34,384 nt of DNA from Candidatus Gastranaerophilales bacterium (GTDB taxonomy: Bacteria > Cyanobacteriota > Vampirovibrionia > Gastranaerophilales > Gastranaerophilaceae): the NCBI GenBank assembly GCA_944323615.1, contig CALUTG010000014.1, positions 1-34,384 of the forward strand, given 5' to 3'. Within the stretch, counting starts at the first letter, position 1. Every line of letters begins with the position of its first letter. This document shows, in pieces, positions 2,398 to 8,723 of this stretch. The translations under genes and the position numbers were made by a program. The notes under the pieces were generated by a model. The model saw nothing but the letters and a program-made list of their open reading frames with translations, ran no database searches and had not been told where the DNA came from.

Positions 2398-3318
2398 GTG
2401 AAATTAACTGCTGTAACCTGCGAAAATATTTTTCAAGCAGATCGCAAAGCCGTTAATAATGACGGTAGTTATAAGGATCCATTAATGAAATGGCCTCTTA
2501 GAGGGGCTGCATATACAAGTGAGGTTGGTGAAGCATTAAGACCTTTGATAGGCAGTGCTGCAACTCTATTTTGGGCGCCTGTATTTTTGTATATCGGAGC
2601 AGATGTTTATGACAAATACAAAAATGACAAAACTGAATACAGCCCTGATTCAAAGCGCTGTTTAAAACAGGCTATTTTTCAAGGTATTGCAAGCCTTATT
2701 TTACCGGTAGTTGCTATTAAAATCGGTCAAAATTTTGTTTCAGGGCTGGGAAGATTCAATAATGAGAAAATAAGTATTAATGGTCAGGAAAAAATATCTA
2801 AATTAGCTATGGATTTTATTGCTAACGGTAAGATGCATGCTTATCACGGCAGAGACAAAGAGTGTTCAGAAGAATTTTTAAGTATTGTAAGAAGTCGTAC
2901 TGATTATAGGAAACATCGCAATCTTTCCGGAAATTTATTTAAAAGAAATTTTCAGAAATTTAAAGATGAGCTGAAGCTTAATAAAGAAGAATATGTCATA
3001 CAATATGCGGAAAATACAATCAATGACCTGATATCGAAAAGGAAGAAACTGCTTAATCCTTCTGATAGTACAAAATCTACAAAACAATATATACAATATC
3101 TTAAATATATGGAAGCCGGGCAAACGTCCAACGTAGCTGTAAAATCCGTATTAAGTAAATACCAGAGCGGCAAAACTTTAAAAGGTAAATTTATTAAAAC
3201 TATTGGTGGGTTTATTTCTATAGGTCTTGCAATAAAGCCTATAGATGATTTTGTAGAGCATGTTATTATTGATAAATATGTAGAACCCAGATTATACAAA
3301 ACAAAAGACCCGAACTAA
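2398..3318 (+). CDS. Uncharacterised 306-residue protein with two hydrophobic segments
   Basis: Not recognised. The GTG start at 2398 is supported by GGAG five bases upstream; no ATG fits better. Two hydrophobic stretches, about residues 50-66 (ending LFWAPVFLYIGADVY) and 93-115, could be a membrane hairpin. A third, weaker one is at 265-280. The central region (140-235) is basic and helical, rich in lysine and arginine. There is no signal peptide. The last codons form the left arm of a strong terminator, so the gene is probably monocistronic. A role in a membrane or in host-directed functions cannot be judged from sequence alone. Confidence 0.75.
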   Translation: MKLTAVTCENIFQADRKAVNNDGSYKDPLMKWPLRGAAYTSEVGEALRPLIGSAATLFWAPVFLYIGADVYDKYKNDKTEYSPDSKRCLKQAIFQGIASLILPVVAIKIGQNFVSGLGRFNNEKISINGQEKISKLAMDFIANGKMHAYHGRDKECSEEFLSIVRSRTDYRKHRNLSGNLFKRNFQKFKDELKLNKEEYVIQYAENTINDLISKRKKLLNPSDSTKSTKQYIQYLKYMEAGQTSNVAVKSVLSKYQSGKTLKGKFIKTIGGFISIGLAIKPIDDFVEHVIIDKYVEPRLYKTKDPN

Positions 3319-3328
3319 CGGGTCTTTT
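3303..3328. terminator. Intrinsic terminator shared by convergent genes
   Basis: Arms 3303-3312 and 3319-3328 are perfect 10-base complements with a CCCG/CGGG core and a 6-base loop that contains the TAA stop of the 306-residue gene. The right arm ends in TTTT and the left arm begins with AAAA, so it can act in both directions. It serves that gene and the 67-residue minus-strand gene ending at 3350. Confidence 0.85.
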
Positions 3329-3349
3329 ATTAATTATCTTTATTAAATC

Positions 3350-3553
3350 TTAGTTATTGCTTAATACAAGTCTGAACGTAGCCAGATTTTTAATAGAAAG
3401 CATTTTGTGTTTATTGCCCTGCTGTTCAGAAATGTTGAATATTCTGCAAATACGTTGAATTTCTTCTACGTCTTTTCTTGAATTTATTTTATAAACATTA
3501 TTAATAGGATCTGCAATTACGGACATTTTAGCATTTAATTCTTCTTCTTTCAT
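3350..3553 (-). CDS. Uncharacterised 67-residue protein
   Basis: A small soluble protein that I do not recognise. ATG at 3553 is preceded by a good ribosome-binding site (AAGGAG, about six bases upstream), which makes it a credible gene despite its size. It is lysine-, asparagine- and isoleucine-rich with predicted helices, and has no cysteines or membrane segment. It is convergent with the 306-residue gene and shares its terminator. The upstream region also holds the start of the HEAT operon on the other strand, so the two are divergent across about 167 bases. Confidence 0.65.
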   Translation of the reverse strand: MKEEELNAKMSVIADPINNVYKINSRKDVEEIQRICRIFNISEQQGNKHKMLSIKNLATFRLVLSNN

Positions 3554-3685
3554 TGTATGCTCCTTAAATAATCTGCTGATATATATATAAAGATTATGTG
3601 TATTTGAAAATTGCCTTTTTGCTTAGATTATATTAAGAAATGTTAACAATATTGAATTAAACTTCGGTTTGAAGCTCAAGTATAA

Positions 3686-3714
3686 TTGCTAAAAAGAGAC
3701 TTTTATAGTATCTT
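3686..3714 (+). promoter_or_regulatory. Promoter placing the HEAT-protein GTG at the transcript 5' end
   Basis: TTGCTA at 3686-3691, a 17-base spacer, and TATCTT at 3709-3714 lie six bases before the GTG at 3721. The same geometry recurs at five other genes in the window. A competing promoter (TTAAAC at 3657-3662, 18-base spacer, perfect TATAAT at 3681-3686) would give a leader of about 28 bases without a ribosome-binding site. Both are motif calls. Confidence 0.4.
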
Positions 3715-3720
3715 TTTTGT

Positions 3721-4656
3721 GTGAGCAATAAGGTTCTTGATTATAAGTCTATACTTGAAAAATGCGGGGTCGGAAGTGCTTCCCTTTCTTATGTTGTTAA
3801 GAATATTGCAAATCTGGAAAAGTTCTATGATTCATCAGAGCTGGTAGAAATATATAATTATTGCTTACAAAACATCACAGATCCTGTTATATTGCTCAAT
3901 GTGGTTCGTTTTTCAAATGATTATAAATCTGTATCAACGATGAATATACTGCTGGATATGCTGATAAGTAAAGCATATGATGGGGAAGCTGATAGTGACG
4001 ATATTATTAATTTACGTGTAATGTGTGCCAAGGCAGTTTCAAGTTATAAGGATACTGCTGCATTAGGTGCTTTATTATATTGCTTAAATAATAAAAAAGA
4101 GGATTACAAGGTTCGATTAGCTTGTGCGGATGCCCTGGGAAGAATCGGGGACAGATACGCTGTAGAACCACTTATTGATGTTGTAAAGGATGAAGAAGAA
4201 AAGTCTGTTTATCTTAAAGAGTCTGCAACTTCCGCATTAGGGATGATAGGGGATACTTCCGCAATTGATCCGTTAATTTCCATATTAGAATCCAAACAGG
4301 CATTTTTAGATAAATTTACTTTTTTAAAGGAAAAGATTGTTGAAGCATTAGGAAAGCTTAATATTAATAATAAAAAAGTAATTAAAGCTTTAAAAACCTC
4401 GCTTATGGATCCATCTCCTATTGTAAGAATAAATGCCATTGAAGCCATTATGAACAGCGATGATGAGGATGCTTACAATTTAATCAAGCCTTGTTTAGCT
4501 GATGAAGATGAAGATGTCAGAAAAAATGCCTTAATAGCATTATACAATATTAATGGCAGAGAAATACTTGATGAAGTGAAAACAGGGAGTTATCCGGTAT
4601 CACTTAAAGAAGAAGCCGCAGAACTGCTGGAAGAATACGAGGATGAGGATGAGTAA
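3721..4656 (+). CDS. HEAT-repeat (PBS-lyase-like) scaffold protein
   Basis: A 311-residue helical-repeat protein. Clear HEAT/PBS-lyase-type units run from about residue 115 to 290, with recurring patterns such as RLACADALGRIGDRYAVEPL, SATSALGMIGDTSAIDPL and VRINAIEAI...DEDVRKNALIALYNI. The N-terminal third is helical but less regular. The C-terminus is very acidic. Such proteins usually bind other proteins; a phycobilin-lyase role is not implied, because no pigment genes are present. The GTG start has no Shine-Dalgarno sequence, and a promoter ends six bases before it. The gene overlaps queC by 8 bases and heads the HEAT-queC-DUF366-SPOR operon. Confidence 0.85.
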   Translation: MSNKVLDYKSILEKCGVGSASLSYVVKNIANLEKFYDSSELVEIYNYCLQNITDPVILLNVVRFSNDYKSVSTMNILLDMLISKAYDGEADSDDIINLRVMCAKAVSSYKDTAALGALLYCLNNKKEDYKVRLACADALGRIGDRYAVEPLIDVVKDEEEKSVYLKESATSALGMIGDTSAIDPLISILESKQAFLDKFTFLKEKIVEALGKLNINNKKVIKALKTSLMDPSPIVRINAIEAIMNSDDEDAYNLIKPCLADEDEDVRKNALIALYNINGREILDEVKTGSYPVSLKEEAAELLEEYEDEDE

Positions 4657-6481: not shown

Positions 6482-6525
6482 GCTTTGAAAAGAAATCTTT
6501 ACATCGTGAAATATTTTGATAAATT

Positions 6526-6556
6526 TTGAGTATTTTATGATAAATTATATTATAAT
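6526..6556 (+). promoter_or_regulatory. Candidate promoter for the winged-helix/DUF262 cluster
   Basis: A perfect TATAAT at 6551-6556 is preceded by TTGAGT at 6526-6531 with a longer than ideal 19-base spacer. The predicted start near 6563 leaves a leader of about 50 bases before the ATG at 6616. The flanking DNA contains two near-copies of ATTTTGATAAATTTT (about 6512-6526 and 6533-6549). Confidence 0.45.
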
Positions 6557-6615
6557 AAAGAAATCCATTAGGGGAATTAAGTTAGACTATCATAGGTGAA
6601 TATAGGAGATATTTG

Positions 6616-7257
6616 ATGCCTAATTATTTGACAAAGGAAGAGATAAGACAGTGGAGAAGTTCTTTGGAAAAAATTACGCTGGAAGAGTTTGCAGCAAGAT
6701 TAGGAAAAACTGTTGAAGAGAGCAAGCCTACAAATGATGTTGTTGATATAGTAATGTCAAAAGGCACTTCTTCTAATACTAATACTGAAATTAGCGACAG
6801 TTTTTCAGCTATTGCGGAAAGAGCTTTTAAAAGAGAGCGTCAAATTTCACATACACCGTTTTCTATTACTAAAAAAGATTTACAGGAAAGTGCTGCAAAG
6901 CCTGCTCAAAAATCAAATAAGAAAGAGGAAGATTCTCTTAGAGCTCTTGTAGGTAAAACTTTAAGCGAAAATGCACCATCTTCCTTTGGTAAAGAGTCTT
7001 TACTTGATAAAGTGGAAGAGTTTTCTGCGCATTCAGATATAAATATTGTGCTGAAGAAATCCTTAACAGACAGAGAGCAGTTAGTTTTTGAATATTTTCT
7101 CAATAACATAGGTAAAACTGTTTTCGCTAAAGATTTAGCTGAATTATTAGAATTACCTAGAGACTATGTTTATAAGTATATTAAGAATTTAAGAGCAAAA
7201 ATTGAAGGAGACAAGCTGAAAAATGTTCCTTCCGGCGGATTTGTTCTTACAGAGTAA
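6616..7257 (+). CDS. OmpR/PhoB-type winged-helix protein without a receiver domain
   Basis: 213 residues. The C-terminal about 65 residues (148-213) read as an OmpR/PhoB-type winged helix: LTDREQLVFEYFLNN, then VFAKDLAELLELP, a recognition helix DYVYKYIKNLRAKI, and the wing VPSGGFVL. There is no receiver domain. The N-terminal 30 residues (LTKEEIRQWRSSL...EEFAARLGKT) are helical, and a Ser/Lys-rich, probably disordered linker spans about 45-145. ATG 6616 is chosen over TTG 6613 because GGAG is seven bases upstream. It is 3 bases before the DUF262-like gene, so the pair is an operon. Probably a DNA-binding regulator; targets are unknown. Confidence 0.75.
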   Translation: MPNYLTKEEIRQWRSSLEKITLEEFAARLGKTVEESKPTNDVVDIVMSKGTSSNTNTEISDSFSAIAERAFKRERQISHTPFSITKKDLQESAAKPAQKSNKKEEDSLRALVGKTLSENAPSSFGKESLLDKVEEFSAHSDINIVLKKSLTDREQLVFEYFLNNIGKTVFAKDLAELLELPRDYVYKYIKNLRAKIEGDKLKNVPSGGFVLTE

Positions 7258-7260
7258 TTG

Positions 7261-8352
7261 ATGGAAATAGTAAATTTACTTGAATTTTTACATAATACAA
7301 AGGATTTTTGTGAAGTTGAGTATGCCGGATTTAATAATAATCTGGTAAATATTCTTGACCTGCTTGATGTTGATGAACAATTTACACAGAAGATTCCATT
7401 AGGAATTATTTATTATTCTCCATTAACACTTGATCAATATGCAATAATTGATGGCTTAAACAGGCTGGTTTCTTTGTCTCTGCTTTTGCATGCCGTATGC
7501 GAATGCTACAAGAAAACATCCGTAAGGAATGATAAAGCTATTAAAACCATTCGCTCCAAATACCTTTTAAACGGGAATAAGAGTAAGCTGAAGCTTTCTG
7601 CCAATAATCAGATTCTATATGATAAAATTATCAATGGAGAACGCCTTTCAGGTAAAGAAAAAGAATCAAAAATGTTCCAGCTGCTTCACAGATATTGGAC
7701 TCAAATAAAAGAAAATAAGCTGCAGGCGGCACATATTTTTAAAATGCTTCAGAAATTTTATGTTATAACGGCTTCTGTTGAACCGGAAATTCAAAGAAAT
7801 GTTTATTATTCTTTAAAGAAAGATTCTGCTGATTTAGATCAATTCGCTTTAATTTCGGATTACTTAAAAAATATTGGAATTTTAGATGAGTGGAATAATT
7901 TATGCAAAATATTTGGCAGCAGAGCTGATTTGCAGATGTTTTTTAAGGATTTTTTTGTTACAAAATTCAGTCTGGCGCATTTTAATGAAAATAAATTATA
8001 TGAGAATTTTGTTAATTATTTTGAAACAATGCTGCAATATGCGCCGGAAGATATTTTGATTGCTAAAATGATTCATTCTGCTTGCAATTATAGAGATTTA
8101 TTAAACGTAAATATTGACAGTGAAAATATAAGAAAAGCTTTAATTCAGGTAAAAATGCATAACGGAGAGGATACTTTTGCCTATTTACTGAATATTTATG
8201 AGGACTATCTTGATAATAATTTATCAGAATCAACTTTTGTTGAAATACTTTCTACAATTGACGAATATCTTAAAAAAAGGCTTAAAACCCCTAATAATGT
8301 TGGCTTTAATGAACTGATTCAGTATTTAAATGCTTTTATAACATGTAAATAA
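7261..8352 (+). CDS. Divergent DUF262 (GmrSD/ParB-like) domain protein lacking DUF1524
   Basis: 363 residues. The segment PLGIIYYSP ... AIIDGLNRLVSLSLLLHAV (46-79) aligns by eye with the DUF262 core, where IIDGQQRLTTLxLLL is standard; here D64, G65 and R68 persist but QQ is LN. The later NVYYSLKKDSADLDQFALISDYL matches the FxxxNxxGxxLxxxDLIxxxL region. The C-terminal TFAYLLNIYEDYLDNN ... IDEYLKKRL matches the helical part after DUF262. The DUF1524 HNH nuclease half found in GmrSD-type enzymes is missing. DUF262 proteins include type IV restriction enzymes and SspE. The altered motif suggests lost or changed nucleotide hydrolysis. No ribosome-binding site is visible; translation probably continues from the upstream gene (3-base gap). 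Confidence 0.65.
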   Translation: MEIVNLLEFLHNTKDFCEVEYAGFNNNLVNILDLLDVDEQFTQKIPLGIIYYSPLTLDQYAIIDGLNRLVSLSLLLHAVCECYKKTSVRNDKAIKTIRSKYLLNGNKSKLKLSANNQILYDKIINGERLSGKEKESKMFQLLHRYWTQIKENKLQAAHIFKMLQKFYVITASVEPEIQRNVYYSLKKDSADLDQFALISDYLKNIGILDEWNNLCKIFGSRADLQMFFKDFFVTKFSLAHFNENKLYENFVNYFETMLQYAPEDILIAKMIHSACNYRDLLNVNIDSENIRKALIQVKMHNGEDTFAYLLNIYEDYLDNNLSESTFVEILSTIDEYLKKRLKTPNNVGFNELIQYLNAFITCK

Positions 8353-8394
8353 TTTTTTAATTGGAAAATATATTAAATTTATTTTTTATGGTCT

Positions 8395-8403
8395 TGGTAT
8401 ACT
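8395..8403 (+). promoter_or_regulatory. Candidate extended -10 promoter for the 88-residue gene
   Basis: TG at 8395-8396, one base, then TATACT at 8398-8403. There is no recognisable -35, as is common with extended -10 promoters. Transcription would start near 8410 and include the AGGAGG at 8446-8451. Confidence 0.5.
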
Positions 8404-8456
8404 ATTATTATAAGGAATTAAGAATAGATAGTAAAACCATAACACAGGAGGCTATT

Positions 8457-8723
8457 ATGGAGAAAGACCATAGGAAAGTTTTGTCATGTTTTCAAACAAC
8501 GTTTGATGAATTATTTTTGCTGGAAAGTATCATTAAATTAACAAAAGAAGCATGCTTGGATCGGGAAGTCAGCTCACAATACTATAACCTTCCGGAAGAA
8601 AAGAAAAAGCATCTAAGCGAAGAAAGAAATAATTATATTAATATGCTTTCAATTGCGCTTGACAGAGTAAAGAATCTCAAAGATATAAATACTATTATAG
8701 AGGAAGAGATTGCATATTTATAA
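8457..8723 (+). CDS. Uncharacterised 88-residue helical protein
   Basis: Start ATG 8457 is fixed by a perfect AGGAGG five bases upstream. A longer reading from TTG 8361 is unlikely because it would run through the promoter. The protein is charged and helical throughout, with two likely helices (about 5-35 and 43-85), and has no membrane segment. It ends in EEEIAYL. I do not recognise it. It has its own promoter but lies 104 bases after the DUF262-like gene in the same direction. It overlaps the convergent transporter gene by 6 bases at its 3' end. A small adaptor or antidote-like role is possible but unsupported. Confidence 0.7.
   Translation: MEKDHRKVLSCFQTTFDELFLLESIIKLTKEACLDREVSSQYYNLPEEKKKHLSEERNNYINMLSIALDRVKNLKDINTIIEEEIAYL

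Follow-up and report, generated by a model that had tools for sequence, protein, structure and literature searches.

On the forward strand of the window (the 34,384-nucleotide stretch of Gastranaerophilales DNA analysed here), three open reading frames at 6616–7257, 7261–8352 and 8457–8723 encode a winged-helix (wHTH) protein, a DUF262-like protein and a small protein. The initial annotation had placed such a trio at 6616–8723, and the three frames are indeed found there in an arrangement conserved across the genus; because order, strand and spacing are kept in nearly all same-genus loci, the trio is, by this comparison, far beyond chance. The wHTH gene starts at ATG 6616, behind a Shine-Dalgarno-like AGGAGA (6604–6609). 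The DUF262-like gene starts at ATG 7261, 3 nt beyond the wHTH stop, and no clear Shine-Dalgarno was seen for this second gene of the pair; this short gap and the lack of a clear ribosome-binding motif suggest that the two genes would be co-transcribed and translationally coupled.

Upstream, directly after QueC, a DUF366 protein (PF04017, 5310–5873) is a genus-wide conserved neighbour. Elsewhere in the window, a 306-residue frame (2398–3318) is 99% identical in one other genome (G015, locus L027), where its neighbours are 79–92% identical; among the other genus members fetched, none has a match at this locus, and the frame looks like a recent transfer.

The wHTH protein and its promoter

The wHTH protein (213 residues, 6616–7257) carries an N-terminal motif, YLTKEEIRQWRSSLEKITLEEFAARLGK, that is invariant or nearly so over ~45 residues, followed by a variable, disordered linker and a C-terminal winged helix of OmpR/PhoB type. 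This C-terminal domain matches Trans_reg_C in Pfam at E 1.7e-4 and 22 bits, below the cut-off of 26.2, and in the structure model, which is of low confidence outside the domain, the winged helix superposes on DrrB, DrrD and PhoP at 1.7–2.2 Å over ~70 residues (Foldseek E ~0.02). A sequence search of solved structures with the wHTH profile returned a weak DrrD match (E 0.27); a weak match over the linker to archaeal RNA polymerase subunit F (E 0.0085 in a sequence search of solved structures) was set aside as composition noise. No Response_reg match was found in Pfam, the N-terminal half consisting of the short motif and the low-confidence linker, and the protein is thus the receiver-less OmpR-type DNA-binding protein that had been described from the sequence. 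The recognition-helix region, PRDYVYKYIKNLRAKI, is nearly invariant, and dN/dS is ~0.05–0.17. With profile matches in 234 of 241 genomes and 47 of 50 genera of the order, and in 0 of 69 genomes from a phylum-wide sample outside it, the wHTH gene is, as judged by profile search, an order-wide and order-restricted core gene of Gastranaerophilales.

Upstream of the gene, a conserved promoter/operator region (CTTTACATCGTGAAATATTTTGA ... TTTTATGATAAATTA; 6497–6553, forward strand) emerges from an alignment of 50 species of the genus, with the pattern ATTTACrT..yGAAAyATTTTG ... TTTATGnTAaATTA. Its conservation exceeds that of the flanking coding DNA, and it is recognisable in ~20 other genera, 82–144 nt before the start codon and beside differing neighbouring genes; at 3 of 24 loci (L107, L109 and L111) the match is no better than to shuffles. 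An Rfam search gave nothing above threshold. A regulon search of this genome with the pattern recovered its own copy only, and since the promoter occurs once in the genome, the simplest inference is that it is dedicated to the wHTH gene and self-controlled; another regulator could read it. Between two loci that are otherwise ~98% identical (L144 and L145), a mosaic tract at ~2550–3850 that spans SPOR and wHTH falls to 52–55% identity in 150-base steps, and the wHTH promoter within that tract stays ~94% identical.

The DUF262-like protein and its altered motifs

The DUF262-like protein (363 residues, 7261–8352) matches GmrSD_N/DUF262 (PF03235) at E 1.7e-5 and 25.5 bits (31.7 in the genome search), short of the curated cut-off of 33.2, and the PADLOC DUF262-DUF1524 model Orf5 matches residues 51–342 at E 2.2e-19. 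An AlphaFold model built on 52 orthologues has high confidence along its whole length (pLDDT 90.7, pTM 0.83) and consists of a ParB/Srx-like N-terminal domain with eroded motifs and a helical C-terminal domain. Among solved structures it matches DndI best (Foldseek E 1e-7 to 5e-7), aligning over 347 of 363 residues at VIA-align Z 17.7 and rmsd 6.7 Å; SspE (Z 14.6) and BrxU (Z 5.8) are further structural matches, and a sequence search of solved structures gave a weak SspE match alone (E 0.05). From the predicted model and these matches, the protein keeps both DUF262 domains and lacks DUF1524 only: it ends after the helical domain, and neither it nor the neighbours scanned contain that nuclease. 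The assignments to DUF262 and the missing DUF1524 nuclease, both proposed earlier, therefore hold, with a Pfam score that is sub-threshold.

The same is true of the altered motif that had been read from the window, where residues 64–68 are DGLNR in place of the canonical DGQQR, and by comparison of 28 eroded relatives with 6 canonical DUF262 sequences of the same order the erosion extends to the other signature motifs of the family. IPxFQR is missing in 28 of 28 eroded relatives and present in 6 of 6 canonical sequences, DGQQR is altered in all 28 and intact in all 6, and the LNSTG loop, kept in the 6 canonical proteins, is replaced. Within the genus the site reads DGLNR, DGVNR, DGLSR, DGLRR and similar, mostly DG[LV][NSG]R with D, G and R kept; in sister genera it reads DGLQR, DGKRR (g41), EGIQK (g43), DGVSR or DGLKR. 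In SspE, GTP hydrolysis and defence both require the DGQQR arginine (PMC13251355), and GmrSD proteins have a nearly invariant DGQQR (PMC4619093); together with the motif erosion, this makes it likely that the ordinary activity of the DUF262-like protein has been lost.

The protein may retain some nucleotide binding or hydrolysis, since D64, G65 and R68 are kept in most of the genus. Among 52 aligned proteins, which share 33 invariant positions overall, G65 never varies, and D64 and R68 are conserved to 90% or more. This pattern, with the essential role of the equivalent SspE arginine, speaks for a modified but active NTPase sensor whose DG[LV][NSG]R site would bind or hydrolyse nucleotides through D64 and R68 and signal to the wHTH protein. 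We consider such a sensor improbable, as neither IPxFQR nor the QQ pair survives anywhere and the NSTG loop has changed, and as GGLSG in L179, EGIQK in g43 and DGKRR in g41 indicate that the site tolerates further erosion. The GGLSG protein (L179:186–1274, genome G004) is the exception within the genus and its frame is still open. It is 57% identical to the protein of the window, and the wHTH, small and NupC proteins of that locus are 86–98% identical to theirs. Replacement by a foreign allele, suggested by this disparity, was rejected because the tree places L179 beside the window clade (98/94), a position with its own clade that accelerated vertical evolution fits better.

Conservation of the locus and of the wHTH–DUF262 pair

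The wHTH–DUF262 pair is carried by ~57 Gastranaerophilales loci, nearly always between SPOR and NupC, and the gene order HEAT-QueC-DUF366-SPOR-wHTH-DUF262-small-NupC is kept wherever contigs reach, except at a few loci where no small gene was detected. The neighbours are housekeeping genes (QueC, DUF366, SPOR, NupC and Gcv). The DUF262-like gene is single-copy in its own genome and, of 21 further genus members searched, in 19; the remaining 2 have no wHTH either, although it is otherwise ubiquitous, and assembly gaps are therefore suspected there. Its dN/dS of 0.08–0.22 in most pairs indicates purifying selection, and no relative is encoded on viral contigs. We therefore regard the DUF262-like gene, on its distribution and synteny, as a core gene of the genus that does not lie in a defence island; a defence-island reading of the locus is ruled out by synteny and ubiquity, the housekeeping neighbourhood being the same throughout the genus.

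The initial annotation had offered a defence sensor as one option and conserved presence without a variable neighbourhood as an argument against it, and the latter is what we find across the genus. A phage-defence sensor or toxin-type module under wHTH regulation would agree with the families from which DUF262 proteins are mostly known, GmrSD, BrxU, SspE, Menshen and Dazbog (PMC10952713), and PADLOC's top match is to a defence-candidate model. Against it stand the lack of a nuclease domain and the eroded active-site motifs, and the option fails on single copy, conserved presence, an invariant housekeeping neighbourhood and the absence of viral relatives; we rate it as very improbable, and a canonical NTPase or defence role for the DUF262-like protein as unlikely. 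Elsewhere in the order, a canonical DUF262-DUF1524 protein of 584 residues (L125:7510–9264; PADLOC Orf5, E 1e-167) is probably a real defence gene; a second genome, G071, has an open frame of the same length.

That the DUF262-like gene is instead what remains of a decaying defence gene is scarcely credible. Motif loss, the accelerated change in L179 and internal stops at two loci would be expected of such a remnant, but the frames are full-length in nearly all ~57 loci, the 33 invariant positions persist, the predicted two-domain fold is confident, and a decaying pseudogene is ruled out by the dN/dS values and the purifying selection they indicate. The two stops, one near the C-terminus of the frame in L135:4001–4969 and the other a TAG within the frame in G152:C28:10870–11958, reflect either a pseudogene or an assembly error, and L135 and G152 are possibly the same genome.

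Across the order, genera g1, g28, g32, g41, g43 and g47 and three further MAG loci (L184–L186) have a full-length eroded DUF262 protein immediately downstream of wHTH. The flanks of the pair vary among genera and include FtsH, RmuC, SLT and 4-alpha-glucanotransferase, among others, and adjacency in six genera and three MAGs despite these different flanks argues that in part of the order wHTH and DUF262 form a conserved unit. The trees of the two proteins show similar branching, with g47 nearest the outside and g41, g28 and g1 nested together, which fits vertical inheritance of the pair as a unit. In the wHTH tree the partnered genera do not form one clade, and three label changes are needed. 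We found no report of the pair in the literature.

Many genera that carry wHTH have no detected DUF262 relative (g15, g16, g20, g24 and others), so the partner is evidently not needed for the basic role of wHTH. Proteins of ~190–240 residues that correspond to the C-terminal half of DUF262 only occur in g27, g29, g31, g36, g38, g39, g45 and, weakly, g30, and are not beside wHTH wherever their position was checked; stand-alone examples (L117, L118, L119, L120 and L121) are single-copy in several genera. Families f5–f7 have a canonical DUF262-only protein, with no wHTH within the stretches fetched around it. Part of this distribution speaks for a reading in which wHTH and the DUF262-like protein are neighbours with no functional link, the latter having a separate housekeeping role (for example in DNA or nucleotide binding) and riding the wHTH promoter: wHTH occurs without a partner in many genera, and the C-terminal-half proteins elsewhere in the genome (g27, g29, g36, g38 and others) imply that proteins derived from DUF262 can function when encoded away from wHTH. 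Co-transcription of functionally unlinked genes is the chief alternative to the interpretation given below, and we think it unlikely to an extent that still leaves it real weight, given that same-strand direct adjacency is kept in six genera and three MAGs where the other neighbours all differ, and that the two trees branch alike.

The small protein at 8457–8723 is less firmly attached to this pair. Its mechanical reading frame starts at 8361, and a likelier start is ATG 8457, behind AGGAGG (8446–8451), which gives 88 residues. A conserved promoter at 8361–8403 (forward strand; alignment of 51 loci) comprises TTGGAAAATATATTAA (8361–8376) and a -10-like TATACT (8398–8403); conservation of the start and of this TATACT across ~50 species supports a promoter of the small gene's own, as had been suggested for this small orphan. 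A regulon search with TTGGAAAATATATTAA at up to 2 mismatches gave 25 matches and its reversed control 17, and hence no clear regulon. A near-copy with 1 mismatch lies upstream of a 75-residue GerE-type orphan regulator (L191, G000:C2:56347). The protein is predicted to be helical and evolves fast in a conserved position; it is present in most loci of the genus with a mean pairwise identity of 38% and a dN/dS below 0.5 where measurable, and Pfam returned sub-cutoff coiled-coil noise only. L150 lacks the gene and has a spacer too short to hold it, and no copy was detected next to wHTH in other genera. In g28 (L115:9031–9237, L123 and L124), a ribbon-helix-helix-like protein of 68–71 residues occupies its place downstream of the DUF262-like gene. 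On this distribution, the small protein is best seen as a genus-level addition outside the conserved pair. The earlier proposal that the trio forms a system is accordingly narrowed: its regulatory-derivative and housekeeping options are supported for the wHTH–DUF262 pair, and its third member, seen in this genus only and missing in L150, falls away.

A proposed regulatory pair and its relation to known systems

We propose, with about even confidence, that the locus encodes a core regulatory pair in which a defence-type NTPase scaffold has been domesticated as a non-canonical partner for a core transcription factor that probably regulates itself. The wHTH protein would be expressed from, and would control, a promoter that accompanies its gene when the surrounding genes change. 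Its co-expressed DUF262-like partner would no longer run the NTPase-to-nuclease cycle of GmrSD and SspE and would act for wHTH as a scaffold, co-sensor or co-regulator and could still hold a ligand via the retained D64, G65 and R68. In this genus, the small protein would be an addition under its own promoter. Somewhat more tentatively, at a little below even confidence, we suggest an evolutionary course in which a restriction-type DUF262 scaffold lost its nuclease, its NTPase site eroded and it became a core co-regulator of the order-specific, self-controlled wHTH protein, while a parallel branch reduced the family to its C-terminal half.

DUF262 is taken as a marker of defence. The locus is a well-supported case in which this fold is a core component and its active site has eroded, and DUF262 homology alone should therefore not be called defence. 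In gut Gastranaerophilales, a defence-type part has seemingly been turned into a core cell component. For an order known mainly from metagenome-assembled genomes, the wHTH protein, with its restriction to the order, its near-invariant N-terminal motif and its unusually conserved promoter, offers an entry point to regulation.

The wHTH protein has the C-terminal winged helix of OmpR/PhoB response regulators in common with them; unlike them it has, in place of a receiver, the ~45-residue invariant N-terminal motif and the variable linker, which were not found outside the order. The DUF262-like protein shares its fold of ParB/Srx-like and helical domains with DndI and SspE, the DUF262-DUF1524 effectors of phosphorothioate-sensing defence, but it lacks DUF1524 and IPxFQR, has DGLNR for DGQQR and sits in a core locus with no Dnd or Ssp genes adjacent. 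The GmrSD_N domain of GmrS, the DUF262 component of GmrSD type IV restriction enzymes, is recognisable in it at E 1.7e-5; its score lies below the Pfam cut-off, its DGQQR is altered and it has no GmrD partner. The DUF262-only partners described from Menshen and Dazbog likewise have no DUF1524 and work with other genes (PMC10952713); those are defence systems, whereas the DUF262-like protein of this core locus is paired with an order-wide protein that resembles a transcription factor.
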